A DNA stretch of 42,778 bases. It comes from Solobacterium sp. GTDB taxonomy: Bacteria; Bacillota_I; Bacilli_A; Erysipelotrichales; Erysipelotrichaceae. Numbering within the stretch: position 1 is the stretch's first letter; each line of letters starts with the position of its first letter. The notes below the pieces were generated by a model. It was not told where the DNA came from. It did no database searches and saw only the letters and a list, made by a program, of their open reading frames with translations. The stretch spans positions 1 through 42,778 of the forward strand of contig JAFUFO010000005.1 in assembly GCA_017469885.1 (NCBI GenBank), given 5' to 3'. This document shows positions 195-32,964 of this stretch, piece after piece. The translations under genes were made by a program, and so were the position numbers.

Positions 195-2525
195 TTAATA
201 CTTTTTCAGGATATATGCGGCCGCAACACCGGTGACTGTAGAGAACAGGAATGATACAAAGCTTCCTGTAAGTCCTTTATCACTGGTATTCGGTACTTTC
301 GTTCTGCGGAACCCAGGTACACATGCCTTAACATTTTCGTTCCATACGTAGTCCGCAGGATATCCTGCCATCTGGCACGTTACTACATAATCCGGCGTAG
401 GGGTCGGAGTGGACTTCGGGTTGGATTCCGGTTCCGGTGTTGGAGTCGGCTTCGAAGTAGGTGTAGGTGTAGATGTAGAAGTGGGTGTCGGTGTCGGAGG
501 AGTAGGAGTAGGATCTGATTTCTTTACCGTGTAGCTTACATTCGGTTTGGGAAATTCCTGTGAAGCCCCCTCATCACCAGTTGAATCAACCGGAAAAAGC
601 ACTGCTCTTTGGTTGGTATTCAGGCTCTCGAGTTTTTTTGAACCATCACGATCATATTCACCATATGTGCCGGCTTTGGTTTTCGGATTCATCAGTTTTA
701 CTTTGTAGGTCAGGCTGACATGTTCGAAGTTAGAAACATGAACATTCGTCGTCCATACGATTTTTTCGTTTTCCTTCTTATTATCTGGGACATACGTTAC
801 TTCATACTTATATGTTCCATCGTCTTTTTTGGCGAAGCCATAATGATTATCGCCTATTTTTTCAGCGGAAAATGTCTCGGTTTTTTCATTGTTATCAACC
901 GTCATCTTCATGGTGTCCGGTTCGAAAAGATCAAAGTTGTAATCTCCATCCACATAACCCATGAAATCATCAACATGACTGTCTTTGTCTACCAGGTAAA
1001 GGATATCGTTCGTAATATCATCAAAGTCAATTGCGCCCCCAAGCATCTGTAGAAATGCGATTCCTACAGGATAATTTCCTACACTCTGTGTGTAACAGTT
1101 ATACCCTTTCTCTTCCAGTGCAGCATATGCCTTCCAGGCATTGTAGAAAGCACGGTCTACGCATAATGCATGATCCTGTTGCTCACCTGTACGAACATAT
1201 GGACGGTCACCAATTAGTTGGTTATTTGTTTCAGCGTTAGGATTAATATTATCGACAGAACTCACATATTCATCCTTATCTGCTTCAACCCATTTTTGAA
1301 CATTTGCCCAATATGCATTCCAGTCACCACCCGGAATAGGGTATACTCCCTCTTTTACTTTTCGAGCAGCACTCCAGCCACCCAATGTGCCTTCATATTT
1401 ATTCCTTTCTGTCTGCGCAAAGATAGAACTGTTTTGTCCATTCACAAAAAACGTACGAGTGAGACCATCACTGACCAATATTACATATTTACGATGGTCT
1501 TTTACATCAGAATCGGCACTCAATACTTCATTTGCTTTAACTAATCCAGCCTCAATATTGGTTCCTTGTCCATCAGGTCTTTTTCCAATCACGTCAACAA
1601 TCTGGCCTTTGCTTTCATCGGTCAATTCAGTAAGTTCGACTTGAGTTGTCGCTGCTGAACGGAAAGATATTACCGCAACTTTAATAGATGCGCCGCTTTT
1701 CTCTTTGGCGTCGATGAGCTGATCCAAAAGGGCTGCTGCCTTTTCCTGCGTATTTTTATTACATGATGACTTATCAAGTACAAATACTACGTCAGAAGAA
1801 AGCTTCTCTTCTGCGGACGGCATGGAGAGTGTTACTTCCGAAATATAGTTACTGTCAAGGTTCGTTGCGGTCTTTGCCTTTGAAATCCACTTATCCTTCG
1901 AAGTATCTGAATTCGTTGTCTCAGAAGCAGGTGCCGCTTCAGCAACCTCTTCACTGACTGCTTCCTCTTTTTCTGCTTCCTTTGCGAGGTTTGCGGAAAC
2001 TTTTTCCTCAACCTCTTCCGGTGATGCAGCTTCAGCAGTTTCTAACATGAGGTCTTCTACTGATAATTCAACAGTTTCTGTTTTTTCTGTTTTCTGATCA
2101 ACGGCTTCAGGCTCTTCTGCCGCTTCTTTGACAGGTTCGGTTTTTTCTTCTGTTTTTTCTTCTGTCTTCTCTTCAGCAGTTGCAGGTTCCGTTCCCGGTT
2201 CTGATGAAGCACCAGTTCCTTCATCTGTATCAGAACCGTCTATAACTGTTGATCCGCCTGTCTCTTTGCCAGGCTCACCTTCCGGTTCACCCTCTTTTGT
2301 CTCTGATTCGGGGTTTTCTGTGAGATCCTTAGATTCTTCTGCTTCCGGAGTTGTGGATGACTCTACTGACTCTACTGTCTCTGTGATAGGTTCATCATTG
2401 TTTTCCGTTCCCTGTCCATTTTCCGCTGTCAGAGATGTCGCGTTTGCGCCAAGCATGACCAGTACAGCCATTCCTGCCGCAATCATTCGCCGCATTCCAA
2501 AGAATGCATTCCTGTTGTTTTGCAT
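195..2525 (-). CDS. Surface protein with von Willebrand A domain and atypical sorting signal
   Basis: Predicted exported protein of 776 residues, probably attached to the cell wall or membrane. Residues 1-34 form a signal peptide (FFGMRR, then a hydrophobic run ending ANATSLTA). Residues 40-210 are an acidic, Glu/Thr-rich low-complexity stalk. A vWA domain spans about 244-500, with the GTNIEAGL loop (T322) and the VSDG aspartate (D353). The first metal-site motif is DKSSC (251-255) instead of DxSxS, so metal-dependent ligand binding may be altered. A Pro-Thr spacer follows. Near the end come C717 and C735 (C-X17-C), then VPNTSD (744-749), a hydrophobic segment and KKY. The start is supported by GTAGGAGG upstream. 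It is paralogous to the next two genes. vWA domains usually bind proteins in adhesion; the ligand is unknown. Confidence 0.85.
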   Translation of the reverse strand: MQNNRNAFFGMRRMIAAGMAVLVMLGANATSLTAENGQGTENNDEPITETVESVESSTTPEAEESKDLTENPESETKEGEPEGEPGKETGGSTVIDGSDTDEGTGASSEPGTEPATAEEKTEEKTEEKTEPVKEAAEEPEAVDQKTEKTETVELSVEDLMLETAEAASPEEVEEKVSANLAKEAEKEEAVSEEVAEAAPASETTNSDTSKDKWISKAKTATNLDSNYISEVTLSMPSAEEKLSSDVVFVLDKSSCNKNTQEKAAALLDQLIDAKEKSGASIKVAVISFRSAATTQVELTELTDESKGQIVDVIGKRPDGQGTNIEAGLVKANEVLSADSDVKDHRKYVILVSDGLTRTFFVNGQNSSIFAQTERNKYEGTLGGWSAARKVKEGVYPIPGGDWNAYWANVQKWVEADKDEYVSSVDNINPNAETNNQLIGDRPYVRTGEQQDHALCVDRAFYNAWKAYAALEEKGYNCYTQSVGNYPVGIAFLQMLGGAIDFDDITNDILYLVDKDSHVDDFMGYVDGDYNFDLFEPDTMKMTVDNNEKTETFSAEKIGDNHYGFAKKDDGTYKYEVTYVPDNKKENEKIVWTTNVHVSNFEHVSLTYKVKLMNPKTKAGTYGEYDRDGSKKLESLNTNQRAVLFPVDSTGDEGASQEFPKPNVSYTVKKSDPTPTPPTPTPTSTSTPTPTSKPTPTPEPESNPKSTPTPTPDYVVTCQMAGYPADYVWNENVKACVPGFRRTKVPNTSDKGLTGSFVSFLFSTVTGVAAAYILKKY
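271..467. repeat. Near-identical DNA tract shared with 2896-3092
   Basis: The DNA coding for the Pro-Thr spacer, Cys module and sorting signal of the first surface gene aligns without indels to 2896-3092 in the second surface gene (constant offset 2625). The match is much closer than in the middle parts of the two genes, which suggests recent duplication or gene conversion of the 3' ends. Confidence 0.75.
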
Positions 2526-2565
2526 ATACTATTGCCTCCTACACCCGCGCGTGGGGTACGATTCG

Positions 2566-2581
2566 ATTTATTTTAACAAAT
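2566..2581 (-). promoter_or_regulatory. Shared upstream element with extended -10, first surface gene
   Basis: On the minus strand this reads ATTTGTTAAAATAAAT, 41 bp upstream of the start codon. An identical 16-bp element lies upstream of the third surface gene (8494-8509). It contains TGTTAAAAT, which fits an extended -10 promoter (TGn plus TAAAAT). No good -35 box is visible. Promoter function is inferred from the conservation. Confidence 0.5.
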
Positions 2582-2770
2582 ACATTGATTTTGTAACAGA
2601 TGTTTTGCGGCATTTCCTGGCAAAATTTTTGCAGTTCCTGAGTTTTTTACAGAATTGTTTCTGTATTTTGTAATATTCGTGCTTTACGTGCGTATAGGGT
2701 TCATAAATTCAGCTCAAAACACTAAGAAATTCAGGTCTGCCGCAACAATAACAACTTTTCAATATACACA

Positions 2771-2805
2771 AAAACAGGAGGTATGACGTTATGTCATACC
2801 TCCTG
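2771..2805 (-). terminator. Rho-independent terminator of the second surface-protein gene
   Basis: A perfect 13-bp stem (2775-2787 with 2793-2805) with a 5-nt loop is followed on the minus strand by TTTTTGTG. It lies 15 bp past the stop of the gene ending at 2820. The rest of 2526-2770 holds the upstream region of the first surface gene and nothing else I recognise. Confidence 0.85.
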
Positions 2806-2819
2806 AATGTTTAGAGAAA

Positions 2820-5429
2820 TTAATACTTCTTAAGGAGTAATACGGCTGCTATACCGATCAGATCTGAAATCAGGAATGTAGTAAAGTTTCCCATCAGTCC
2901 TTTGTCATAGGTATTCGGTACTTTTGTTCTGCGGAACCCAGGTACACATGCCTTAACATTTTCGTTCCACACATAGTCAGCCGGATATCCTGCCATCTGA
3001 CACGTTACTACATAATCCGGTGTCGGTGTCGGAGTGGACTTCGGGTTGGATTCCGGTTCCGGTGTCGGTGTCGGTTTTGAAGTAGGTGTAGGAGTCGGAG
3101 TTGGTGTTGGTGTTGGTGTTGGTTTCGGCTCGCTATATGTTACTACTGGAATTTCAAATGTAAACGTGCCTGTTTGCCCATCTGATGTCGTATAATCCAG
3201 CACAGCGCTGACATTTGTATCATACGACTTCCCATCTTCTGCGCCTTCCTTCAGGTAAAGAGTGTAGGACAGCGTCACTGGATTCGCGTTTTCAATTGGT
3301 ACATTGATAGCCCAGGTAATCGTTTGCGAAGCATTATCATAGTTTACGACATACGGATATACACCTTCCGCATTCTTTGTGCCAAATGACCACTCATGAT
3401 CACCTGTTTTTTCAACCGGAAGAGTTTCTCCGCTTTTTGTCATCGTAAATCCATCATCTTCAACTAATGTGAAATCAGAAGGAACGATATCCGTTACTGT
3501 ACCGGTATTTACCATGTACCGAATTGAGTTATCGATGTCTGAAAACAGTTTTTTTACATCACCCGGACTACTCTTATTGGCACTGTATAAACTGTTTTCT
3601 CGCAGCCAATTTTTGAACGGTGCTACCAGTTCAAGACCGCCTCCAGTGCTGCTGTCATAAGTGATGGTAGCCACTTTATATTTCTGACCCATCTCTTTCC
3701 AAAGATGGCCGGTTTTGTACAGACCTTTCTGCAAGCAGTCTACATGATACTGGTAATAATTGGGGTTGATAGCGTCTGTATCAAATGTGTATGTTCCATC
3801 TCCATTATCAATAACCATATACGGGTTGCCTTCTTGATAATTTACCCCTTCCCAGCTTGCATTTGGAGTGAACTCATACCAGTACTGATAATCCGCGCGA
3901 TTTCCAAATGTTCCTTTAGTTCCAAAAAGCTCTGCGCCATTAGTGGTTGTGTGCTTAACAATAGTTCCATCTGGTTGTCCTGCTTTATAGGTTTCACCAA
4001 AAGCATACGGACATGGCTGATCCCATTTGGTTACGCCTGTCAGCTCAGGGTCGGTAGAATTGTACAGGGCTTCATAAGAGTCAAAAAGGTATATGTTACT
4101 TTTTTCACTTGGGTCCTGAACATCAACGGAATAGGAAGCTTTATTATATCCCATGGTCTGTGATAAAGTCGGTTTGCCTCCTGAAGCTAACGTATATTTA
4201 TTACTTGTATAATACTGTGCATAGATTGTTGTAGGCTCATGTTTTTCATTTGCCCAAATATATCCCTTACCATCTGTGAAAAAGACCACGTATTTGTGAC
4301 TATCTTCAACTTCGGAATCTGCCTCTAACCACATATTCGCAAGATCAAGACCGACATGAGGACCAGAACCACGACCGAATGCATCGCGGAATGTATCCTT
4401 ATCCATGGCATCAGAAAGCTGAAATGAATTTGTGATGTACGCTTTTGTGTCCTCATTATAAGGTGTCAATCCGGAATACGAACCATTAGAAGTATATTTA
4501 ATTGCATCATTTGCGCTTCCTGTAAACAGCACGACACCAACTTTCAGGTCGATTGATGGATTGTTTTCAATAATGCTTTCAAATAATTCCGTTGAAGCAT
4601 CAATAAATTCCTTTCCCAAATCAGTAGAATTGGAACTATCCGTCACAAAGACGACATCCACTTTGTTTTTATATTCTCCCGAAGGAAGCGATAACGTTAC
4701 AGTCGTTTCACGCTGCTCCGGTGTCAGTTCAGTTGGTGAGGCCTTTTTAGATCCGCTGACATCCGGCTGTGTCACAGGCGCAGACGGTTCTGAAAGAAGT
4801 GAAGCACCGACAGGCTGAGACATTAAAGTCATCGGCTGTTCTTCCGACTTCTCTTCTTCGTTTTCTTCTTCCTCTGCAGGTTCTTTCTCAGCTTCTGCCG
4901 CAGGTTCTTTCGCAGCTGGCTCTTCCTTCACAGCAGCCTTCGGAGCCACTGTCAGTTTACTTTCAGCCAGCTCTGCAGGAGCCGCTTCAGGAGCGGATTC
5001 AGGTAAAGAATCAGTGACAGTATATTCAACTGTTTTGTCTTCTGATTCACCCTCTTTGGCTTCCGGAGTTCCTTCCTGGTTGTTATCCGCAGGAGCTGCA
5101 TTGCCATCCGGATTCAGATCAGTGCCCGGATTATCGATCGGTTCTTTGGCTTCCTCCGAATCTTCCGGCTTGCCTTCTGTCTGACCTTCGGGCTGGTCTT
5201 CTTTTTTCTGATCTCCAGCCGGGTCCCCAGTTGGTTCATCGTTCAACTCTTCTGTTGTTTCCGGAGACGGTTGTGTAACAGTCTCTGTTACTGTTTCATC
5301 TCCGGTACCGGGAGTCTGTTGGCCCTCTGCTGTAAGGGCAGTTCCATTTGCGCCCAGCATGACCAGCATTGCCATGCAGATAGCTATAAAGCGACGCAGT
5401 GTGAAGCCTTTCTGTTTGTTGTTCCACAT
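2820..5429 (-). CDS. Surface protein with intact von Willebrand A domain and atypical sorting signal
   Basis: Predicted surface protein of 869 residues. The frame is open upstream to 5558, but the start at 5429 is preferred: it is preceded by TTGGAGAGG, and it gives MWNNKQKGFTLRRFIAI, which matches the N-termini of the two paralogues. After the signal peptide there is an acidic Glu/Pro/Ala-rich stalk to about residue 220. A vWA domain follows, with an intact metal motif DSSNS (264-268) and a long insertion rich in Tyr, Asn and Gly. Then come a beta-rich region, a PTPTPT spacer, C810 and C828 (C-X17-C), VPNTYD (837-842), a hydrophobic segment and KKY. A role in adhesion or host-protein binding is inferred from the domain family; the ligand is unknown. 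Confidence 0.85.
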   Translation of the reverse strand: MWNNKQKGFTLRRFIAICMAMLVMLGANGTALTAEGQQTPGTGDETVTETVTQPSPETTEELNDEPTGDPAGDQKKEDQPEGQTEGKPEDSEEAKEPIDNPGTDLNPDGNAAPADNNQEGTPEAKEGESEDKTVEYTVTDSLPESAPEAAPAELAESKLTVAPKAAVKEEPAAKEPAAEAEKEPAEEEENEEEKSEEQPMTLMSQPVGASLLSEPSAPVTQPDVSGSKKASPTELTPEQRETTVTLSLPSGEYKNKVDVVFVTDSSNSTDLGKEFIDASTELFESIIENNPSIDLKVGVVLFTGSANDAIKYTSNGSYSGLTPYNEDTKAYITNSFQLSDAMDKDTFRDAFGRGSGPHVGLDLANMWLEADSEVEDSHKYVVFFTDGKGYIWANEKHEPTTIYAQYYTSNKYTLASGGKPTLSQTMGYNKASYSVDVQDPSEKSNIYLFDSYEALYNSTDPELTGVTKWDQPCPYAFGETYKAGQPDGTIVKHTTTNGAELFGTKGTFGNRADYQYWYEFTPNASWEGVNYQEGNPYMVIDNGDGTYTFDTDAINPNYYQYHVDCLQKGLYKTGHLWKEMGQKYKVATITYDSSTGGGLELVAPFKNWLRENSLYSANKSSPGDVKKLFSDIDNSIRYMVNTGTVTDIVPSDFTLVEDDGFTMTKSGETLPVEKTGDHEWSFGTKNAEGVYPYVVNYDNASQTITWAINVPIENANPVTLSYTLYLKEGAEDGKSYDTNVSAVLDYTTSDGQTGTFTFEIPVVTYSEPKPTPTPTPTPTPTPTSKPTPTPEPESNPKSTPTPTPDYVVTCQMAGYPADYVWNENVKACVPGFRRTKVPNTYDKGLMGNFTTFLISDLIGIAAVLLLKKY
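2896..3092. repeat. Near-identical DNA tract shared with 271-467
   Basis: Partner of the tract at 271-467; it encodes the spacer, Cys module and sorting signal of the second surface gene. Simple GGTGTCGGTGTC-type repeats at about 3015-3125 encode the Pro-Thr spacer and could vary in length by slippage. Confidence 0.75.
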
Positions 5430-5902
5430 AGTGTAGTTGCCTCTCCAACCAATCTGATAATGGTTTCTATTTGGATATATATTATCAAAAAAAGGTTGGC
5501 ACAATAATTGTAAATTTGTGATGGCGAACCAACATTCTACATGTATTTCATTTTTCATGCATGCAATGTACCCTTGTGTTTTTACAGTGCAGTATTTTAT
5601 TGCTTTTTACATAAGCATGCGTTCATGCGATAAAACAGTCACTATTTTTGCACAAATTAATATTAATCAATGCAACATTTTTCTTTAACAGTACCTTATA
5701 TTCGATTGATTGGTCTCCCATCGAAAATTTTATTTACAATTTTCACAAAATGTTAATAATCCGGTGTAAACAAGATAAATCTGTAATCTTCCGAATCGTT
5801 ATTCTTTTTACGTTTCTTCTAATTAATACTGCATGATTTCAAACAGGTACTCTGAATCCGCATGCACTTATTTCCCGGTGAATATGCAGTCTGCCAATTA
5901 CG
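5430..5902. other. AT-rich intergenic region
   Basis: About 470 bp, visibly richer in A and T than the genes. It holds the promoter of the second surface gene (5479-5507). No convincing gene was found: short open frames here lack ribosome binding sites. No RNA gene was recognised. Confidence 0.6.
5479..5507 (-). promoter_or_regulatory. Candidate sigma-A-type promoter of the second surface gene
   Basis: On the minus strand TTATTG and TAATAT are separated by 17 bp, with the -10 about 50 bp upstream of the start at 5429. This gene lacks the ATTTGTTAAAATAAAT element of its two paralogues, so it may be controlled differently. Confidence 0.45.
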
Positions 5903-5942
5903 AAAAAAGCCTGATTCCTGTATATGCATTCAGGAACCAGGC
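5903..5942 (-). terminator. Rho-independent terminator of the third surface-protein gene
   Basis: A 12-bp stem with one G-T pair (5909-5920 with 5931-5942) and a 10-nt loop is followed on the minus strand by six T. It lies about 25 bp past the stop of the gene ending at 5968. Confidence 0.8.
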
Positions 5943-5967
5943 CTTGGCCTCCTTTGTGTGTGGAGTA

Positions 5968-8454
5968 TTAATACTTCTTCAGGATTAATACAATCGCAAT
6001 GCCGAGCAGATCAGAAATCATGAATGTGATCAGATTTCCCATCAGTCCCTTGTCATAGGTGTTCGGAATTACGCGTCTTGCGGCTGTGCTGTGGAATACT
6101 CCGAAGTCATCGATGTATCCCGGCTGACATGCCTTAGCGGCTTCGTTCCATGCGTAGTTTGCAGGATACCCGGCCATCTGGCAGGTTACTACATAATCCG
6201 GTGTCATGGTAGGTGCCGGTGTCTTATCCGACTTGCTTTCGGGTGTCGGCGTAGATGTAGGTGTCGGCGTTGCCGTAGGCTTCGGGGTTGTTGTAGGAGT
6301 AGGTGTAATCGTCGGCGTCGGAGTCGGGTTTATTGTATGCGCGTTTGTGATCGTAACCGTGTCTTCTTCAGACACAACCGTTTTGGTATAACCTCTTGGT
6401 ACTTCGACTTCATCAATGGTGTATTCAATCTCACTGCCGTCTTTATCGTAAGCAGTCAGATCTTCAAATGTATAAGTCCACTTATTGTCTGCACTCAGAG
6501 TAACAGGTTCACCGGAGGCTTCCCCGGCCTTATTCAGCTGAACCTGAACGCTTGCAGGACGGATACCATCCTTGTCATCAGTATCGTCCCAGACCTTGCT
6601 TACAGTCTTTGCAGTAACAAAGCGTGCGTAGACATCTACAACTTTGGCAGTGTCCTTATCTTTTGTGATAGCGGGAGCTGTTTCAACAGCTGATTCATCG
6701 ATTCGCTGTGTCAGCTCAGGGTCACTGTACCAGCCTTCAAAATGAATATTTCCCTTATCTTCCGGCGTGTAGTCATAGACTTTCACCTCAGAATAGTTTT
6801 TCTCAGATTTCGCAACACTTCCCATCACATGGTAATTTACTGTTATCGCCGGCTGCCAGTAAGCATAGACATTAATCTCAGTATCTGTCCCCGCAGGGAG
6901 ACCTGAATTCACCCAATAAACATGTGATTCTCCAGCATAATACTTTTTCTCCGGTGTCTTTATTTCTTTACTTCCATTCGGATATTTGATGATTTCCTCA
7001 TCTATTTCCCAGTACTTAAACTGATAGTCTGAGACAGGTGTTTTCTCTGATGGATCAGCGTACGTATGAGTCAGTGACCCGACCTGAGACCTGTACTCAT
7101 AAGCATTCGCATTGGACCAGGAACCGGATCCTGTAGAAATGTTATCGATATAGTTATAATCCAGTCCGCGAATCTTGCTGGGTATATACTCCGGAGTAAA
7201 GCTGATTACCGTATCTTCATCCACATAGTAATGATTACCAGATGTTGTTCCTTCAGAATTCGTAAAACTGATTGTTGAAGAAGCATCTATTACATTTCCC
7301 CTGTCATCTGTCCAGTAGCCGGTATATTTATATTCATAACCCGTATAGGAAAATACCTCACCCACTCTGAGAGCAGTTCTTGTCTCCAATTTTTTCTTTG
7401 TAAAATTCCAACCAACTTCTGCAGAGAGTATATTGCTTTCGGAGCTTGTAGTTGTCGTCCCGTCATGATGTCGAATATCAAGAAAGATAAGTGTAACTTG
7501 GACATCAGGTCTGTATCCCGCATAAACACTGTACTCTGCCACACCGGCTTCGTCAGTAATCGCTGCAGCATCTTCATACTTCACCGCAAAATAGTTTCCA
7601 CTTCCGGTTCCGTCTGGTTGTGTTCTTGGAATCCGCGTTCCATCCGCATACTTCCATGATGAACTACTGAATTTATACTGTTTTCCATCTTTGGTTACTG
7701 TCGTATTCTTAACTTTACCGCCGAAATATGTGGGTATATACCAACTGGCAGTATCTCCTTCGGTCAGTCCTGATTTACTTAGTGTACCAACTTTCTCATA
7801 TTCACCGTTTTCATCCCACGCATAAATATATATTTTTACGGTTAGTGGTTTGCTCGCTTCATCAGCAGCATTCAACAGTTTCACACCTTTCAGAATCGGC
7901 GTATCTGCCTTCAAAGGTATCTGTTCTACATTCAAAGGAGTTGTTTCAACTGTGCCATTATCTTGAGATATATCCGTATTGTCCGAAGGCAATGACCCTT
8001 CAGTATCAGAGACAGCCGAATCTGCATTATCCAAAGGTAATATTTCTTCAGTATCAGAAATCTCGGAATTCTCAATATCTGATGCAGTAGCTGTTTCTTC
8101 CGGCTCACCTTCTGTCTTTAGTTCACCTTCCGGTTCCGGATTATCTTCTGCTTTTGGTTCCGTTTCCGGTTCGCCTTCTGATATGATTTCCGTTTCCGGT
8201 TCGCTTGCGGGTATATCCGTTTCCTCGATTTCTTCCTCCGAATCTTCAGATGTGATTTCTTTTTCATCCGTATCCTTGGTTGTTTCCGGAGTCGATGAAA
8301 CAGCGGTTTCTGTTACAGGCTCATCACCAGTAGTGATATCCTGACCGCTTTCTGCCGTAAGAGCTGTAGCATTTGCGCCCAGCATAACCAGCATTGCCAT
8401 GCATATCGCTATGAAGCGGCGCAGTGTGAAGAATGTGTGTTTGTTGTTTCGCAT
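5968..8454 (-). CDS. Surface protein with InlB-like and Cna-B-like domains and atypical sorting signal
   Basis: Predicted surface protein of 828 residues. The signal region FTLRRFIAICMAMLVMLGAN is almost the same as in the second surface gene. An acidic stalk follows to about residue 190, then beta-rich unique domains. Next comes a segment resembling the InlB/Listeria-Bacteroides repeat (FEGWYSDPELT motif), then a Cna protein B-type domain (KVWDDTDDKDGIRP at its start, IEYTIDE near its end). Cna-B domains often form internal Lys-Asn bonds and act as stalks or pilin parts. The C-terminus has a Pro-Thr spacer, C758 and C776 (C-X17-C), IPNTYD (796-801), a hydrophobic segment and KKY. There is no vWA domain. 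An AAGGAG sequence precedes the start. An adhesin or pilin-like role is inferred. Confidence 0.82.
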   Translation of the reverse strand: MRNNKHTFFTLRRFIAICMAMLVMLGANATALTAESGQDITTGDEPVTETAVSSTPETTKDTDEKEITSEDSEEEIEETDIPASEPETEIISEGEPETEPKAEDNPEPEGELKTEGEPEETATASDIENSEISDTEEILPLDNADSAVSDTEGSLPSDNTDISQDNGTVETTPLNVEQIPLKADTPILKGVKLLNAADEASKPLTVKIYIYAWDENGEYEKVGTLSKSGLTEGDTASWYIPTYFGGKVKNTTVTKDGKQYKFSSSSWKYADGTRIPRTQPDGTGSGNYFAVKYEDAAAITDEAGVAEYSVYAGYRPDVQVTLIFLDIRHHDGTTTTSSESNILSAEVGWNFTKKKLETRTALRVGEVFSYTGYEYKYTGYWTDDRGNVIDASSTISFTNSEGTTSGNHYYVDEDTVISFTPEYIPSKIRGLDYNYIDNISTGSGSWSNANAYEYRSQVGSLTHTYADPSEKTPVSDYQFKYWEIDEEIIKYPNGSKEIKTPEKKYYAGESHVYWVNSGLPAGTDTEINVYAYWQPAITVNYHVMGSVAKSEKNYSEVKVYDYTPEDKGNIHFEGWYSDPELTQRIDESAVETAPAITKDKDTAKVVDVYARFVTAKTVSKVWDDTDDKDGIRPASVQVQLNKAGEASGEPVTLSADNKWTYTFEDLTAYDKDGSEIEYTIDEVEVPRGYTKTVVSEEDTVTITNAHTINPTPTPTITPTPTTTPKPTATPTPTSTPTPESKSDKTPAPTMTPDYVVTCQMAGYPANYAWNEAAKACQPGYIDDFGVFHSTAARRVIPNTYDKGLMGNLITFMISDLLGIAIVLILKKY

Positions 8455-8675: not shown

Positions 8676-10724
8676 TCAGGCTTCTGACGGTTTCCGTTTC
8701 CTGAATATGTAATACACAATGCAGCCAGCGATGATCGCCCAGCCGATTGCTTTCTGTGCTGAGGAAGGACCTGCAGTTCCCATCTGCGCAGTTTTTGCAT
8801 GATCGTTATCGACCGTATATGCCTTGATACAGGCATTGCCGAATTCAAATACGTCTGCGGCATCGGTTTCCTGATTCAGTGTTTCGATATCGGTCCAGGC
8901 ATACCCGTCTGCGGCTTTTACACAGGCATAACTCTCATTCGGATTGCTTACTACTTTTAACCGGCATTCGCCGATATTGTCATCGGTCTGAAGGGATGGC
9001 TTTATGATATGTTCCAGGTTGAGCCAGGAGAGCTTCCGTCCTTCATGTTCTGTCACGACCCGCTCAACCACCGCAAAGGATTCGCCCTTCTTCAGACTGA
9101 CCGGTGTTTCCAGCGCAACGGTATGAAACCCTTTTTCCTTCAGGGAGACATCCATCATGGACGCATACTCCCCGGAGGACAGGTCACTGGTCTCATTGAT
9201 CTTTATGATCCGGATCTCTGCCTGCGCACCGGCAGCCGGCGCATAGACCGATACCGCGGTAAGGATTTCATCATTCTCCGCCGTAAAGATATTCGCCACT
9301 CTGGTCTCTTCATTATCCGTCGGCAGGGATACCGGATCGATGCTCATCTGTACCGCAAAGTCATACTGGTAGATGTTGTCATAATCAAACCCATCCTGTG
9401 CGTCATCTGCGCTCAGTGCGCAGGCACCGGTCATGGATCTGTCATAGTAACTGAGCCAGAAATAGCCGGTCCCATGGCCGTTTTCATCCTTGATGCCATA
9501 GTTGTATCTGCGATTGGTGATTGCCTCATTCTCGGTTCCCTCTGCCTCCGCAAGCATGGAATCCAGCTGGTCTTCATAGGTTTCATAGTTGGTGTCATAG
9601 CTTCCCCAGCTGTTCTTGATCAGAAATGCACCGTCTCCTTCGGGAATGGAATTGCGGTTTGCCCTGAAATTTTCTTTTGGAAAACTGTCATTCCATCCCA
9701 CGATGGACACCATGTGATTCAGCTTGAGCGTTTCTTCATCGTAATACTGCGCCCAGTTGGAATAGTTATAGTATTCGCCGTTTCCGGATTCCGTGGGCAT
9801 GGAGGAATCCGAGCCGTATTCCAGCATGACTGCCCCGTATGTGATCACGGCCTGTTTCAGACGGCGGATCGCGTCCGGATCATAGCCCGTCGTCACATAC
9901 CGTTCCTTCTTCCGGTCCACGTGAATGATATTCGGCGCATCCAGATAGACAAACTGCTGGATATGGGCAGCCGGGACGGCTGTTTTATCTTCCTCTGGAT
10001 TGCGCAGTCCGTATGCACTGACCCCTTCCGCTTCTTCCCGCATCGGTTCATACGGTTCCTGCTCTTCTGTCAGAGGTCCGGTCCAGTTGGTAAGCAGGTT
10101 CTGATTGGCACCGCCGAACCCGTTAAAGGAAAACTGTACGTTTGGTTCTTCCGTATGGAGCGGCATTGCGCCCTCTCCCTTCTGGGAGCCGTCTTCCTTT
10201 GGGACCATGTTCATATAGGCATGGTAAAACTCACTGAGATCGATCTCATCCGAGGCATTGGCAGGTTCAAACTGATCTGCGTTATTCACAATCATTCCGG
10301 CTGTTCCATTCCGTTTCCGGAGAAGATTGCTTTCAACGGAGGATATGGCACTGAATGCCCAGCAGGAACTGAACGCCCCCTGGGATTTTGCGATCGTGGA
10401 ATCCCCGACGGAAGGCAGATAATACTGCGGCAGAGCAGAAACATCAACTCCGTAATCCTCCGTCTGCCGGTTTCCGTAATATTCGTTGATCATTAATCCG
10501 ATGGTCGCAGGAACTTCCTGCTTGGTGTAGTATTCCCCATCCTCATCTTCCATCCGGTATGTTTTTACCCATGCGGAAAGTTCATCCCAGTCCTTCCGGT
10601 CTGTGATGCCGTCCTGGTTAAAATCAAATTCGATGCCTGCGGTTTCCACCGTTCCCTCCGCATGCGGAAAGATCAATGACATCCCAAGCACAATACATGT
10701 CAGAACCAGCAGTTTTGGTTTCAT
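8676..10724 (-). CDS. Exported papain-family (C1) cysteine protease with dockerin-type calcium loop
   Basis: A 682-residue secreted protease. Residues 1-24 form a signal peptide. Residues 34-45 match a dockerin/EF-hand calcium loop (D34, N36, D38, G39, D42, D45). The C1 catalytic residues are all present: Q115 and C121 (QGAFSSCWAF), H337 (NHMVSIVGW) and N371 (IKNSWG). The region after the catalytic domain resembles the beta-sandwich lectin-like domain found in bacterial C1 proteases. The C-terminus has a hydrophobic helix followed by FRKRK, so the enzyme should be membrane-anchored facing outside. It has its own terminator and sits between the atp operon and the surface proteins. It might process those proteins or degrade host peptides; the substrate cannot be told from sequence. 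Confidence 0.88.
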   Translation of the reverse strand: MKPKLLVLTCIVLGMSLIFPHAEGTVETAGIEFDFNQDGITDRKDWDELSAWVKTYRMEDEDGEYYTKQEVPATIGLMINEYYGNRQTEDYGVDVSALPQYYLPSVGDSTIAKSQGAFSSCWAFSAISSVESNLLRKRNGTAGMIVNNADQFEPANASDEIDLSEFYHAYMNMVPKEDGSQKGEGAMPLHTEEPNVQFSFNGFGGANQNLLTNWTGPLTEEQEPYEPMREEAEGVSAYGLRNPEEDKTAVPAAHIQQFVYLDAPNIIHVDRKKERYVTTGYDPDAIRRLKQAVITYGAVMLEYGSDSSMPTESGNGEYYNYSNWAQYYDEETLKLNHMVSIVGWNDSFPKENFRANRNSIPEGDGAFLIKNSWGSYDTNYETYEDQLDSMLAEAEGTENEAITNRRYNYGIKDENGHGTGYFWLSYYDRSMTGACALSADDAQDGFDYDNIYQYDFAVQMSIDPVSLPTDNEETRVANIFTAENDEILTAVSVYAPAAGAQAEIRIIKINETSDLSSGEYASMMDVSLKEKGFHTVALETPVSLKKGESFAVVERVVTEHEGRKLSWLNLEHIIKPSLQTDDNIGECRLKVVSNPNESYACVKAADGYAWTDIETLNQETDAADVFEFGNACIKAYTVDNDHAKTAQMGTAGPSSAQKAIGWAIIAGCIVYYIFRKRKPSEA

Positions 10725-17412: not shown

Positions 17413-18303
17413 TTACTCCTCGATCATTCCGAGCAGATCGAGAATGCGGTTGAGATCAGCCGTATCCGTGAACCGGATGTTCAGATTCTTTCCGCTGATC
17501 GAAACCTTCGTGCCAAGCTTTGACGTCATCCGGTTTTCCAGATCCCGGATGAGCGGATCCTTTTCCGGTTCCCGGCGGAGTTTCTTTTCCGGTTTGTTTC
17601 CGCCGGCAAGCTCCTTCACATAGCGCTCGACTTCGCGGACGGACATGCGTTCCTTCCGGATCTTTTCTGCCGCCTCGATCATTTCCTCTTCGTCATTCAG
17701 CCCAAGCAGCGGACGGACATGGCCCATGGTCAGCTGCTTTTCGGTGACCATCTCCTGGACGGGATACGGCAGCTTAAGCAGCCGTAACATATTCGCACAG
17801 TATTCACGGGATTTTCCGACCCGCTCTGCGAGCTGTTCCTGCGTATAGCCGAGCCGCTTGATCAGCGATTCATAGGCCGCCGCTTCTTCAATCGGATTGA
17901 GGTTTTCACGCTGCACGTTTTCGAGCAGGGAAATCTCCATCATCTCTTCATCGGTGAAGTCCACCGAGATTGCCGGCACCGTCGCAAGACCTGCGATCTT
18001 TGCGGCCCGTAAACGGCGTTCGCCCGCGATCAGCTCATAGCCCTGAACGCTGGGCCGTACGAGCAGCGGGGTAAAGATGCCGTGCAGGCGGATCGAATCC
18101 GCCAGTTCATTCAGGGACTTCTCCTCAAATTCCTTACGCGGCTGGTAGGGGTTCGGACGGATCTCCGATACCGGGATCTCCACTTCCTTGCGTCCCGGCG
18201 CATCGCCGCCGTTATTCTGAATGTCTTCCAGGAACTGTTCGACATCGGAACCGAATATGGAATTCAGTCCTCTGCCAAGTCCGCTCTTTTTCTTATCTGC
18301 CAT
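17413..18303 (-). CDS. parB: Chromosome-partitioning protein ParB (Spo0J)
   Basis: 296-residue DNA-binding CTPase that loads at parS sites and spreads. The basic N-terminus (KKKSGLGRGLNSIFG) is the usual ParA-contact region. The CTP-binding motifs GERRLRA (94-100) and ENVQRENL (128-135) are intact. A helix-turn-helix follows (TQEQLAERVGKS...), then a C-terminal dimerisation domain. It lies 3 bp after parA and 3 bp before atpI, in the same direction. Confidence 0.95.
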   Translation of the reverse strand: MADKKKSGLGRGLNSIFGSDVEQFLEDIQNNGGDAPGRKEVEIPVSEIRPNPYQPRKEFEEKSLNELADSIRLHGIFTPLLVRPSVQGYELIAGERRLRAAKIAGLATVPAISVDFTDEEMMEISLLENVQRENLNPIEEAAAYESLIKRLGYTQEQLAERVGKSREYCANMLRLLKLPYPVQEMVTEKQLTMGHVRPLLGLNDEEEMIEAAEKIRKERMSVREVERYVKELAGGNKPEKKLRREPEKDPLIRDLENRMTSKLGTKVSISGKNLNIRFTDTADLNRILDLLGMIEE

Positions 18304-18306
18304 ACG

Positions 18307-19092
18307 TTACCTCTTTTCGTTCTGCGCGATGACTTCCTTGACGAGGCCGACATATGCCTTGGCCCCTTCGGAACGGGTGTCGTATTCGAAGATGCTTTCC
18401 CCACGGCTGGGCGCTTCGGAAAGACGCACGTTGCGCGGGATATAGCACCGGTAAACCTTTTCCTTGAAGTACTTGCGCACTTCCTGCTGGACTTCCACGG
18501 AAAGCTTGGTTCTTACATCGAACATCGTAAGCAGAACGCCTTCGATGGAAAGCTGCGGATTCCATAACCGCTGGACAAGCCGGATCGTGGAAAGCAGCTG
18601 GGTCAGACCTTCGAGTGCGAAGTATTCACACTGTACGGGAATCATGACCGAATCCGCCGCGGTCAGCGCATTGGTGTTAAGCAGACCGAGGCTCGGCGGG
18701 CAGTCGATGATAATGTAGTCATACTTCCAGCGCACCGCGTCGAGCTTCTGTTTCAGAAGATGTTCACGGCCCACCTCATAGAGGTTGGAAGCCATCTCGA
18801 CATCCGCACCGGACAGATCGATCGTCGCCGGAAGCACGTCCAGCGGCGGCATATCCAGGGTAATGGCGTCCTGTTCGACGGTGTCGTTTCCCATCAGAAC
18901 CTGATAGACGCTGTGATTATGGTCAAATCCGGCCGCTCCGGCACCGATGCCGTTGGTCGCATTTCCCTGCGGGTCAAAGTCCACAAGCAGGACGCGCTTG
19001 TCCGCATAAGCAAGACCCGCCGCAAGGTTGATCGATGTCGTCGTCTTTCCGACGCCGCCTTTCTGATTCGCTACTGCGATAATTTTCCCCAT
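18307..19092 (-). CDS. parA: Chromosome-partitioning ATPase ParA (Soj)
   Basis: 261-residue ATPase with the deviant Walker A KGGVGKTT (11-18), the LLVDFDPQGN motif and IIIDCPPSLG. It drives segregation with ParB and, in Firmicutes, modulates DnaA. It lies between noc and parB, the same order as in Bacillus. Confidence 0.96.
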   Translation of the reverse strand: MGKIIAVANQKGGVGKTTTSINLAAGLAYADKRVLLVDFDPQGNATNGIGAGAAGFDHNHSVYQVLMGNDTVEQDAITLDMPPLDVLPATIDLSGADVEMASNLYEVGREHLLKQKLDAVRWKYDYIIIDCPPSLGLLNTNALTAADSVMIPVQCEYFALEGLTQLLSTIRLVQRLWNPQLSIEGVLLTMFDVRTKLSVEVQQEVRKYFKEKVYRCYIPRNVRLSEAPSRGESIFEYDTRSEGAKAYVGLVKEVIAQNEKR

Positions 19093-19110
19093 AGTTTCTG
19101 TATCTCCGTT

Positions 19111-19917
19111 TTATTTGGGGAAGCGGATGATGATCCGGACATCCGTCAGGGATTCTTCCTGTTCGGCCACCACATCGATTCCCATTTTCTTAATCATATT
19201 CACGCACTGATTCACGGAGTTGATTCCGATCTGTGTGCTGCGCGCAAATCCTTTTGTCTTCGTTTTGCGCCGGTTCTTCTTTTTCGCTCCGGCGATCTTT
19301 TCCACATAGGCCTCTGTCTGACGGACATTGAGGCTGCGGTCTTCCACATAGTGATAAGCAGCTGCCTGTTTCTCTGCCGGCAGTGCGAGTAATGCCCGGG
19401 CATGACGCTCGGAAAGCTTGCGGTCGGCAACTGCCTCCTGCACTTCCTGCGGAAGGTTGAGCAGCCGGATCTTGTTTGCGATGGCGGACTGCGATTTGCC
19501 CACCCGCTTTGCGAGTTCCTCCTGGGTCAGATTGGCCTGCCGCATGATCTGCACATAGCCCTTGGCCTCTTCCACCGCGGTGAGGTTTTCCCGCTGGATG
19601 TTTTCCACCATGGCCATTTCCGCCGCCTGGTTTTCACTCGGCGAAAGAATATAGCACGGCACGGTCTCAAACCCCGCATCCATGCAGGCACGCCAGCGGC
19701 GTTCGCCCGCAATGATCTCATAGTGGTCTTCCACCTGCCGTACGGTGATCGGCTGAATCAGACCGTTTACCCGGATCGAGTCCGTCAGCTCCTTCATTGC
19801 GGTCTCATCGAAGTGAAGCCGCGGCTGATAACGGCTGGCACGGATATCACCGATCGGCAGATCCACCGTTTTTCCGGTGCGGTCCCGTTCAAAGATGTCG
19901 AATATCGAGCGTGCCAT
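19111..19917 (-). CDS. noc: Nucleoid-occlusion ParB-family protein Noc
   Basis: 268-residue ParB paralogue. The short N-terminus (MARSIFDIFERD) could form an amphipathic membrane-binding helix, as in Noc, and lacks the basic ParA-contact sequence seen in ParB. The CTP-binding motif GERRWRA (71-77), ENIQRENL and a helix-turn-helix are present. A basic linker (KKKNRRKTKTK) leads to the C-terminal domain. Noc couples division-site choice to chromosome position. Its place between rsmG and parA supports Noc over a second ParB. Confidence 0.88.
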   Translation of the reverse strand: MARSIFDIFERDRTGKTVDLPIGDIRASRYQPRLHFDETAMKELTDSIRVNGLIQPITVRQVEDHYEIIAGERRWRACMDAGFETVPCYILSPSENQAAEMAMVENIQRENLTAVEEAKGYVQIMRQANLTQEELAKRVGKSQSAIANKIRLLNLPQEVQEAVADRKLSERHARALLALPAEKQAAAYHYVEDRSLNVRQTEAYVEKIAGAKKKNRRKTKTKGFARSTQIGINSVNQCVNMIKKMGIDVVAEQEESLTDVRIIIRFPK

Positions 19918-29782: not shown

Positions 29783-31636
29783 ATGCCAATGGAACTCAGT
29801 GACCTGCTGGAATACGCAAAGAATACGTATCACATCGAAGAAGAACACAAATGGGCAGACTGGCCCGGTTTTTCTGTGCTTTCCCATCCGGATACCGGCA
29901 AATGGATTGCCTTATGCATGCGGCAGTGGGACAGCGAGACCGGCGAACTGCTTGAACGCATCGATCTCAAATGTGAACAGAGCTGCCTGCGGGAATTCCG
30001 TGCCCCCTGGCTGACCCTGCCCCTGCGCATGAAGGGATATCACTGGGTCGGCATTGCCTTTACGCATGAGACCAGCGAAACAATCGTACGCACGCTGTTT
30101 GACCGGGCAATCACCTACGGAAAGCCGCGCGGCTATACCGTTGTCCTCGATCAGAATACTGTTCCTTCGGAAACCGTGCACCGTGATACCGCCCTGCCCT
30201 TTTCCGGCAGTTCCTACCGCCCGGACAAGGTCAATGTGCCGGTTGAAATCACGCAGATGCGGAAGATGAACTCCACGCTCGGGGATCTCAAATCCGTCCG
30301 GAATAAAACCTTCTATAAACAGGCCGTCTTCATGAAGGACTATGAAGATGACTATCCCTGGCAGGGAGACTTCTTCCATTACTTTTCCACCTACCGGGAT
30401 CTGAATACACCCCAGCTGCGGGGGTACTTTTCCTGGCGCACCAAGATACGCAAGGGAATCTATGAACCGATTCCCTTATCCGCGGCTTATATTTATGTCT
30501 ATGAACTGCTCAACGGCATCGGTGCCGCTTCCGACGAAGACCGTCTGGCAAAGATCCGTGATTTTGTGAATCAGTCGGTGAAAGCCGGAATCTTCTCACA
30601 ATCCGACTTTCGGACGGTGGAAGACTGGATTCCCGCATTGGGCATCCTGCTGGGATTAAGTCCGGAAATAATCGCAAAGTATGCGGATGATTCGTTTTTA
30701 AAACGGGATGCGGTGCTTGAAAAGCTGATGAAACCGCGGGAATACAGCGATGCAGAAGTTCTGGAGGCACTGAAATTCGTGGCCGGAAAGAAGCTGGACA
30801 AAAGTCCGGTTCTGAATCATGAGCGCGGTGCGTTTCTCTTTGCGGAAGCGTGGCGCATCGGCACGGAAACAACCTTTGACAGCGGAAATACGCTCTTTGC
30901 GCTCTGTTTCGGAGCCCGGGGCACCACCCGCTGGTATCCGCTGATCAATGCGGTATATTATGAAGAACACGCCCCGAAAGATCAGGACTATGTCCTGAAT
31001 TCCATGCATTCCCTGCACTGCCGGAACGGCATCTGGACGCAGGAGGGCTATGACCCGCGCAAGGAACAGAAATTCCTGCTTTCCGCCTTCCTTCATGAGG
31101 CAGACTGCCGGTTCCGTCGGTATCTCAAAACCGGCCGTTACCTGCAGGAAAAAGAAGCGGATGCCTGGGCGCTGCCGATCATCAATGCGGCGATTCAGGC
31201 TGACCGTAAAGCAGAGCTTGAGGCATCGCGTCCGAAGATCACGATCGATCTCTCCGGACTTGAAAAGATCCGCAGCGACGCCCTGACAACGCAGAACAGT
31301 CTGCTTACGGAAACGGAAACCATGCCGGATCTTCCGATCGAAGCGCCGCATACGGAAGAACCTGACGTGCCCGAACGGATTGAAGAACCGGAACTGAACA
31401 CCGCCCTTCCGCTGGATCCGGTGTATGTAAAGATCCTGCGGAAACTGCTTAAGGACGAACCGGTTCAGGATATGATCCGGGAACAGCACCTGATGCCCGC
31501 ATTGATTGCGGATACGGTGAATGAACTGTTTTATGATGAAATCGGTGATACGGTTCTCTTATGTGAAGACGACCGTCTTGCGGTAGTGGATGACTACCGT
31601 GAGGACATCGAACAGCTGATTGGAGGTACGAAGTGA
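29783..31636 (+). CDS. sngA: Shango-type defence protein SngA (TerB-N/TerB-C) with MmcQ/YjbR-like N-terminus
   Basis: 617 residues; a start at 29789 is also possible, and neither has a clear ribosome binding site. Residues 1-115 resemble the MmcQ/YjbR fold (WPGF, GKWIALCM, DLKC, GYHWVGIAF). Residues about 175-260 match the TerB-N domain (MKDYEDDYPW, QLRGYFSWRT, YIYVYELLNGIG). The last 75 residues match TerB-C (INELFYDEIGD-like, here VNELFYDEIGDTVLL). A helical TerB-like region lies between. In the Shango antiphage system a TerB-domain protein acts with an ATPase and a helicase, and both follow here. The N-terminal fold is my own recognition and may not occur in all SngA proteins. Confidence 0.8.
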   Translation: MPMELSDLLEYAKNTYHIEEEHKWADWPGFSVLSHPDTGKWIALCMRQWDSETGELLERIDLKCEQSCLREFRAPWLTLPLRMKGYHWVGIAFTHETSETIVRTLFDRAITYGKPRGYTVVLDQNTVPSETVHRDTALPFSGSSYRPDKVNVPVEITQMRKMNSTLGDLKSVRNKTFYKQAVFMKDYEDDYPWQGDFFHYFSTYRDLNTPQLRGYFSWRTKIRKGIYEPIPLSAAYIYVYELLNGIGAASDEDRLAKIRDFVNQSVKAGIFSQSDFRTVEDWIPALGILLGLSPEIIAKYADDSFLKRDAVLEKLMKPREYSDAEVLEALKFVAGKKLDKSPVLNHERGAFLFAEAWRIGTETTFDSGNTLFALCFGARGTTRWYPLINAVYYEEHAPKDQDYVLNSMHSLHCRNGIWTQEGYDPRKEQKFLLSAFLHEADCRFRRYLKTGRYLQEKEADAWALPIINAAIQADRKAELEASRPKITIDLSGLEKIRSDALTTQNSLLTETETMPDLPIEAPHTEEPDVPERIEEPELNTALPLDPVYVKILRKLLKDEPVQDMIREQHLMPALIADTVNELFYDEIGDTVLLCEDDRLAVVDDYREDIEQLIGGTK

Positions 31637-32964
31637 TGAGTGAACCAAGAAAAGTACCGAAGCGCATTGCCCAGACGGTGCTCAACTCCCTCAAGGGTGG
31701 CGTTGTGCCGCGCATCGGGCTTCCCTATATCATGGTCGGCCGCAAACGTGAGGTCGAAGCGTTATTACATGACGTCGATATCATTTCCGAAGGCGGTGCC
31801 TCCTTCCGGTTTGTGGTGGGAAAGTACGGTTCCGGAAAAAGCTTTTTACTGCAGGCGATCCGCAATTATGTCATGGACCGCGGTTTTATCGTGGCCGATG
31901 CGGACCTCTCGCCGGAGCGGCGTTTACAGGGAACCCGCGGCCAGGGGCTGGCCACCTATCGGGAACTGATCTCCAATCTTTCCACCAAGACCAAACCCGA
32001 GGGCGGTGCCCTGACCCTCATCCTCGATCGCTGGATCAGCGCAGCCCAGAGTGAGGCAGCCCTTGAGACCGGTCTCTCGCTTGGCGATCCCGCCCTTGCG
32101 CAGGCAACGGAGCGGAAGATCATGGAAGTGACATCCTCGATCCGCGAACTCGTGCATGGCTTTGAATTCGCCAAGCTGCTTACCGCCTACTATCAGGCGT
32201 ATATCAGCGGCGATGATGAAACCAAGGCAAAGGTCGTCAAATGGTTCCGCGGAGAATATCCGCTCAAAAGCGAGGCAAAGGAAGCGCTTGGGGTAAATAT
32301 CATCATTTCGGATGATGACTGGTATGACTACCTCAAACTGTTTGCGGTATTCTTCCGTCTGGCAGGTTATGCGGGCATGATGATCATGGTCGATGAACTC
32401 GTCAATCTGTACAAGATTCCAAATTCCATTACCCGTCAGTACAACTATGAAAAGATCCTGACGATGTATAACGATACCCTGCAGGGAAAGGCGTCCTACC
32501 TCGGCATCATCATGGGTGCCACGCCCCAGGCCCTTGAGGACAAACGCCGCGGCATTTACAGCTATGAAGCGCTGCGTTCGCGGCTTGCGGAAGGACGCTT
32601 TTCGAAGCCCGGTGCCCGGGACCTGCTTGCGCCGGTCATCCGGCTTGAACCGCTGACCGCGGAAGAGATGCTTGTCTTATGTGAGAAGCTTGCGGACATG
32701 CATGCGGGGCTGTACGGCTATCCGCGCACCGTCAATGCGGAAGACCTTGCGGGCTTTATCAAGACGGAATACAGCCGGATCGGCGCGGATACGAATATCA
32801 CGCCGCGTGAAGTGATCCGTGACTTTATTGAACTGCTCGATCTCCTGTATCAGAATCCCGGCATGAAGATTGCGGAGCTTCTGGAGTCCGATGAATTTTC
32901 CTATGCCCAGTCCGAAGCTGTCAGTGATGAGGCAGCACCGGAATTTGCGGAGTTTACGATATGA
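31636..32964 (+). CDS. sngB: Shango-type ATPase SngB (BrxD/DUF2791-like)
   Basis: 442 residues from ATG at 31636, which has GGAGG nine bases upstream and overlaps the sngA stop (TGATG). A GTG at 31633 is the alternative. Walker A is GKYGSGKS (62-69) and Walker B is MIMVDE (249-254). The N-terminal SLKGGVVPRIGLPYIMVGR and the DLSPERRL...GQGLATYREL segments are typical of the DUF2791/BrxD AAA-type ATPases of BREX and Shango. It probably works with the helicase encoded next; the genes overlap by 4 bp. Confidence 0.82.
   Translation: MSEPRKVPKRIAQTVLNSLKGGVVPRIGLPYIMVGRKREVEALLHDVDIISEGGASFRFVVGKYGSGKSFLLQAIRNYVMDRGFIVADADLSPERRLQGTRGQGLATYRELISNLSTKTKPEGGALTLILDRWISAAQSEAALETGLSLGDPALAQATERKIMEVTSSIRELVHGFEFAKLLTAYYQAYISGDDETKAKVVKWFRGEYPLKSEAKEALGVNIIISDDDWYDYLKLFAVFFRLAGYAGMMIMVDELVNLYKIPNSITRQYNYEKILTMYNDTLQGKASYLGIIMGATPQALEDKRRGIYSYEALRSRLAEGRFSKPGARDLLAPVIRLEPLTAEEMLVLCEKLADMHAGLYGYPRTVNAEDLAGFIKTEYSRIGADTNITPREVIRDFIELLDLLYQNPGMKIAELLESDEFSYAQSEAVSDEAAPEFAEFTI

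Follow-up and report, generated by a model that had tools for sequence, protein, structure and literature searches.

Three genes with a shared C-terminal tail

The window, the whole stretch of 42,778 nucleotides analysed here, corresponds to contig C48 in an assembly of 2.66 Mb; among named relatives, the nearest are MAGs of Solobacterium sp. sampled from reindeer, roe deer, sheep gut and similar sources. Three genes, designated here ORF1 to ORF3, lie on its minus strand with the following features.

195..2525, minus strand: ORF1, predicted secreted protein of 776 aa with a VWA domain, a weak GBS104-like Ig domain, a Pro/Thr linker, a Cys module and a VPNTSDKGL signal
1464..1790, minus strand: VWA domain of ORF1 (aa 246-354; 38-41 bits)
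309..392, minus strand: Cys module of ORF1, DYVVTCQMAGYPADYVWNENVKACVPGF
198..305, minus strand: sorting signal of ORF1, KVPNT-S-DKGL, hydrophobic segment and KKY
2820..5429, minus strand: ORF2, predicted secreted protein with a GBS104-like tip-pilin Ig domain
3141..3512, minus strand: GBS104-like Ig domain of ORF2 (53.1 bits, cut-off 26)
2934..3017, minus strand: Cys module of ORF2 (profile match)
2823..2930, minus strand: sorting signal of ORF2, KVPNT-Y-DKGL, hydrophobic segment and KKY
5968..8454, minus strand: ORF3, predicted secreted protein of 828 aa with a Cna_B domain, a Pro/Thr linker, a Cys module and an IPNTYDKGL signal
6343..6606, minus strand: Cna_B domain of ORF3 (aa 617-704; 88.2 bits)
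6115..6198, minus strand: Cys module of ORF3 (profile match)
5971..6078, minus strand: sorting signal of ORF3, VIPNT-Y-DKGL, hydrophobic segment and KKY
8350..8454 (ORF3), 2421..2525 (ORF1) and 5325..5429 (ORF2), minus strand: putative signal peptide regions, near-identical in sequence

The GBS104-like Ig match in ORF1 scored 18.9 bits, under the cut-off of 26. The start of ORF2 is most likely at position 5429 rather than 5558, as supported at Met44 by a GGAGAGG site and by the conserved signal peptide. A conserved hydrophobic N-terminus, recognized by eye without a signal-peptide predictor, is present in all three proteins, and we expect them to be exported via Sec. A structure model of the ORF2 head reached a pLDDT of only 49 and was left out of use.

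As the first-pass annotation had described, all three proteins end in a common C-X17-C module followed by (V/I)PNT(S/Y)DKGL, a hydrophobic segment and KKY; the motif is thus of the sorting type but not LPXTG. The Cys pair is C717/C735 in ORF1 and C758/C776 in ORF3. When a fourth copy from the same genome was included in the alignment, the tails were 57-80% identical to that of ORF1 over 65-78 aa, and 32 columns were invariant among the four, including both Cys residues, a Trp, the Thr and the Asp. At the DNA level, ORF1 and ORF2 are 60-77% identical over their last 90 nt and 70-100% identical over the next 210 nt upstream, beyond which identity falls abruptly to about 25-30%; the protein bodies are approximately 37% identical. 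As DNA identity is confined to the tail end, the tails were inherited or exchanged as a unit while the heads diverged, which bears out the earlier description of variable heads on a common tail. The sharing of one tail by divergent heads is genuine and goes far beyond what chance would give. We found no close relatives of whole ORF1 among the genome contigs searched, and no relatives in viral contigs or plasmids.

Other genes in the window were also read. Adjoining the three tail genes, positions 8676-10724 encode a C1 peptidase of the papain family that has a lectin-like domain and, at its C-terminus, a transmembrane (TM) helix without a sorting motif. At 17413-19917, a ParA gene lies between two ParB-like genes and adjoins rsmG/mnmG-like genes, resembling the order rsmG-noc-parA-parB that is ordinary near the replication origin. 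Three consecutive plus-strand genes at 29783-35204 encode proteins of 617, 443 and 747 aa, the last two of which resemble a P-loop ATPase and a large helicase; the three genes may form a defence-type cassette.

Residues conserved in the probable sorting signal

The fourth full tail copy, found on contig C13 in a frame of 2645 aa (L067:165-8099), carries VPGTGDRGL, indicating that Gly is allowed after Thr. Part of this frame matches a transglutaminase-related NCBIfam model below cut-off. The genome also harbours signals without a Cys module (VPNTYDEG, IPNTGDLT, IPNTSDNS, VPKTADKS, IPNTSDRI and VPNTSDPF). The residue after Thr can therefore be Gly, Ser, Tyr or Ala within a single genome.

We then tallied the positions flanking the presumed cleavage site in 29 readable tails picked by the Cys module alone, from genomes that are all of draft or MAG quality. 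P2' was Asp in 28 of the 29. The sole exception, VPPTATNN, came from G312, a genome without a Pfam-detectable sortase. P1' was distributed among Gly (8), Ser (7), Tyr (7), Ala (6) and Trp (1). In 57 TM tails selected by homology, P1' was Ser in 21, Gly in 19, Tyr in 10, Ala in 5, Trp in 1 and Thr in 1; the pattern used in that search itself required Asp, so that conservation of Asp is read from the Cys-module-selected set only. Val replaces Pro at P3 in several homologues (VNTYD, VNTWD).

Class B sortase motifs are reported to vary at every position, [ENPQSV][APV][KQS][ST][GNS], and the published enzymes accept varied residues after Thr (PMC11987632). Asp at P2' is required by Bacillus anthracis SrtB (PMC11987632), the one enzyme for which this requirement is known experimentally. 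In Clostridioides difficile, SrtB is the only sortase, and its predicted substrates carry SPKTGDE, SPKTGDS and NVQTGDQ (PMC4155245). Taking into account the P2' Asp, the variability of class B motifs and the C. difficile substrates, the signal of the window proteins, with Thr at P1 followed by a hydrophobic segment and a basic tail, fits class B. Ser at P1' in ORF1 is inside the published range (Gly, Asn, Ser), and Tyr in ORF2 and ORF3, like Trp elsewhere, lies outside it and would represent an extension. The first-pass annotation had argued that Ser or Tyr after Thr implies a dedicated sortase or another anchoring route. Given the Gly, Ser, Tyr and Ala versions in this genome, its class B sortases and the P1' range already reported (PMC11987632), no dedicated sortase is needed.

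Sortases in the genome and genus

A PF04203 search of the genome identified two sortases, both of class B and over the curated cut-off of TIGR03064 (214 and 191 bits). A profile search revealed a third, divergent class-B-like sortase (L307:3083-3901) with a TIGR03064 score of 74 bits, below cut-off. This enzyme had been missed by the PF04203 genome search, although it scored 25.4 bits when scanned as a protein. The three genes are located on contigs C4, C6 and C41, the divergent one on C41. There is no sortase gene among the ORFs of the window, and none of its tail genes is linked to one. A dedicated sortase of class A or class C was also considered for the tail, and with PF04203 and TIGR03064 none of either class was found in the genome.

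Within the genus, the class B profile matched 69 of 70 genomes, 56 of them with at least 275 bits. The catalytic His, Cys and Arg are kept in all 11 aligned class B enzymes, and prmC adjoins the class B sortase gene in 22 of the 30 loci checked. As a class B enzyme is this close to universal in the genus, its co-occurrence with the tail, a check that had been suggested, is non-discriminating. In G001 (92% complete), Pfam detected one sortase, of the prmC-linked class B kind, alongside five Cys-tail proteins; there was only one strong class B profile match, plus a fragmentary one (39.5 bits). G021, of the same genus, has class-C-type pilus loci that use LP(E/S/I)TGG, with VPKTAD and VNTWD tails elsewhere. 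The presence of LP(E/S/I)TGG beside PNTxD-type tails indicates that the two signals are distinct.

The Cys module

The Cys module matched no Pfam family, and neither Pfam nor NCBIfam provided a name for the tail. By profile, the module was found in 16 of 315 genomes of the order, 13 of them in the genus of the window, and among 395 genomes sampled evenly across the class it was matched only in this family. It also occurs without the sorting signal (L012, L029, L032, L035, L203, L205 and L206), including in a subtilisin-like protein and others with a C-terminal anchor of three TM segments. Its occurrence in three-TM-anchored proteins sets the module apart from the sorting signal. The possibility that it forms part of that signal was ruled out, as each occurs without the other. 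In the subtilisin-like protein (L069:3628-6999, contig C41), which has the Cys module and a three-TM C-terminus, the catalytic Asp and His positions look replaced when read by eye. Similar ends with the module and three TM segments were seen in G009, G021, G022, G088, G095, G098 and G122.

In sister genera the module contains an EF-hand-type loop, Dx[ND]xDGxxxCxE, with Cys at loop position 10, and a PDB search with the profile of these modules matched the loop to calcium proteins of the EF-hand type. The two versions detect each other: the window-module profile (A2) finds the EF type at 5e-5, and the EF-type profile (A6) finds the window module at 2.3e-4. The DxDxDG...E ligand loop is present in the sister-genus modules and absent from those of the window, in which the acidic ligands are lost and the Cys pair and Trp are kept. 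The window module is related to the EF-hand-type calcium loop that sister genera retain. A structure model of the tail showed, with modest confidence, a small hairpin at the Cys module, and in ORF3 a helix spanning the hydrophobic segment, at a pLDDT of about 90. A fold search with the tail model returned nothing significant (best E 3). The invariant Cys pair suggests a small hairpin of the disulfide type where the stalk has its base, which would act as a spacer or stabilizer and not as a sorting signal; the first-pass annotation had proposed that it may form a disulfide-closed loop that binds the wall or a partner. A conserved Cys/EF-type module of this kind is missing from Pfam.

Relatives lacking the transmembrane segment

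Tails that end directly after the motif, [VP][ND]T[AGS]x[KRQ]-STOP, were found in the sister genera g22, g23 and g47 and, within the window's genus, in a few genomes. Their endings include VVNTAVK, VVNTAAK, LVNTSDK, IVDTATR, IPNTATK and VPDTADR. With one antisense frame excluded, 33 such TM-less tails were collected, of which 28 follow an EF-type or related Cys module and 5 do not. One of these tails closes a frame that spans at least 2052 aa, carries 11 FctA isopeptide domains and terminates in PTPTPTPSPDTDNHYIPVPNTAAK-STOP. The DNA pattern for V[ND]T[AGS]xK-STOP gave 22 matches across six genomes, compared with 4 matches for its reversal. The window's own genus contains intermediates, which end in VPNTADR-STOP and VPDTADR-STOP. 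The TM-less tails of g22 and g47 have no P2' Asp. A stop-codon or frameshift artefact is unlikely in the cases read by eye, since none of the frames beyond the stop encodes a hydrophobic segment and, in several of them, terminator-like hairpins, also recognized by eye, lie 3' of the stop. Stalk- or adhesin-like proteins of sister genera bearing the TM-less motif were noted at L308:3844-9999, L300:8773-12000, L276, L278, L284, L193-L213 and L236-L253.

With PF04203, no sortase was found in G133 (98% complete), G135 (97%), G228 (100%), G227, G232 or G312, and G134 had one of the pilus type. As the same search missed the C41 enzyme in our genome, PF04203-negative genomes could still harbour a divergent class B enzyme. 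One such divergent class-B-like sortase, a relative of that on C41, is encoded directly after a TM-less tail gene in G106 (L305:294-1151). The first-pass annotation had named occurrence of the tail in genomes without a sortase, together with recovery of the proteins in the membrane fraction with an intact C-terminus, as observations that would speak against its reading. The first of these would apply only to the TM-less relative, carried mostly by PF04203-negative genomes. As a tentative proposal, more doubtful than probable, [VP][ND]T[AGS]x[KR]-COOH on secreted stalk- and adhesin-like proteins of several small-genome sister genera might be a new, TM-independent C-terminal sorting tag with an evolutionary link to the sortase signal in the genus of the window. 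The presence of TM-less tails on typical wall-stalk proteins in PF04203-negative genomes raises the question of how these proteins stay on the cell.

Discussion

ORF1 to ORF3 are paralogues of adhesin-like character, and their heads (VWA, GBS104-like Ig and CnaB) are of the pilin type. Our results make it likely that the tails carry a class B sorting signal in which P1' is relaxed and P2' is Asp, joined to a separate Cys module. A class B sortase would recognize (V/I/A)-(P/V)-(N/D/K)-T | x-D, cleave after Thr and link the Thr to the wall. P1' would be free to vary among Gly, Ser, Ala, Tyr and Trp, with the conserved Asp at P2' serving as the recognition residue in place of Gly. Class B signals would thereby extend to a multi-substrate system found across the genus, with Asp as the constant residue and Gly as an option.

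Possession of a sorting signal is no proof of wall linkage: C. difficile CbpA (NVQTG) is apparently unprocessed, and weakly hydrophobic C-termini may escape processing (PMC5569036). The C-terminal segment could accordingly be a permanent membrane anchor in which PNTxD is no longer cut in the Ser and Tyr versions. Such unprocessed C. difficile proteins (PMC5569036) and the exchange of Pro for Val in VNTYD and VNTWD would agree with this, as would G312, which keeps the Cys module and the TM segment although Pfam detects no sortase there. A plain anchor, however, would have no need for a near-invariant Asp and a strongly kept Thr, and the tail from G312 is precisely the one that lost the Asp; we regard a permanent anchor as rather unlikely. 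A sortase-independent role is also conceivable, in which T-x-D/K would be part of a domain for C-terminal targeting, like that of the TM-less tails, and the TM helix would be a later addition in the window's genus. The frequent pairing of TM-less tails with the EF-type or related Cys module and the intermediates within the window's genus point in this direction, but the missing Asp in g22 and g47, and the resemblance of the Gly-containing tails of the genus to ordinary sorting signals, make it decidedly improbable.

Among readings that retain a sortase, one would assign the Ser and Tyr versions to a dedicated enzyme, either the second class B sortase (C6) or the divergent sortase of C41, and leave Gly to the prmC-linked enzyme. 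With three class-B-like enzymes in the genome there is room for such a division, and in the homology-selected set Tyr occupies P1' in 8 of 21 tails with the Cys module vs 2 of 36 others. G001, on the other hand, has IPNTSD, IPNTYD, IPDSYD and VPKTAD with a single strong class B match, and the window tail genes are unlinked to the C6 and C41 enzymes, so that we doubt this division of labour and judge it improbable. Pilus-type class B sortases are known (PMC3019223), and the neighbouring genes carry GBS104-like tip domains and a Cna_B domain; ORF1 to ORF3 might then be subunits polymerized by a class B sortase, as in Streptococcus pyogenes. We consider this highly improbable, as the cluster has no sortase gene, no class C sortase was detected in the genome, and the same tail occurs elsewhere on many non-pilin heads.

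The preferred reading, a class B signal with relaxed P1', can be compared with known systems. Like the class B substrates of B. anthracis (IsdC, NPKTGDE) and C. difficile (SPKTGDE), the window proteins combine a signal peptide, xPxT-x-D, a hydrophobic segment and a basic tail, and class B sortases with His, Cys and Arg are present in the genome. Unlike them, they belong to a set with Val, Ile or Ala at P4 and sometimes Tyr or Trp at P1', and there are many diverse substrates per genome, with an added Cys module. The tripartite signal after a Pro/Thr-rich linker recalls LPXTG proteins of class A and C sortases, but ORF1 to ORF3 have neither Leu at P4 nor Gly at P1', and the corresponding sortases were not found. 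The VWA domain of ORF1 and the Ig domain of ORF2 resemble GBS104-type tip pilins, whereas the window cluster has no pilus sortase beside them. The sister-genus modules are similar to EF-hand loops, but each has a single loop on its own, with Cys and Trp after it, and the ligands are lost in the window proteins. Finally, a short C-terminal tag common to unrelated proteins is also a feature of MYXO-CTERM/myxosortase and other CTERM systems. MYXO-CTERM carries its invariant Cys inside the tag, beside a TM helix, and is cleaved by a CPBP protease (PMC11980579), whereas the Cys pair of the window proteins precedes the motif, with a spacing that differs from protein to protein. The window tails are therefore best read as a known kind, class B sorting signals, in which the new elements are the relaxed P1' and the undescribed Cys module; the TM-less relatives are the more surprising part.
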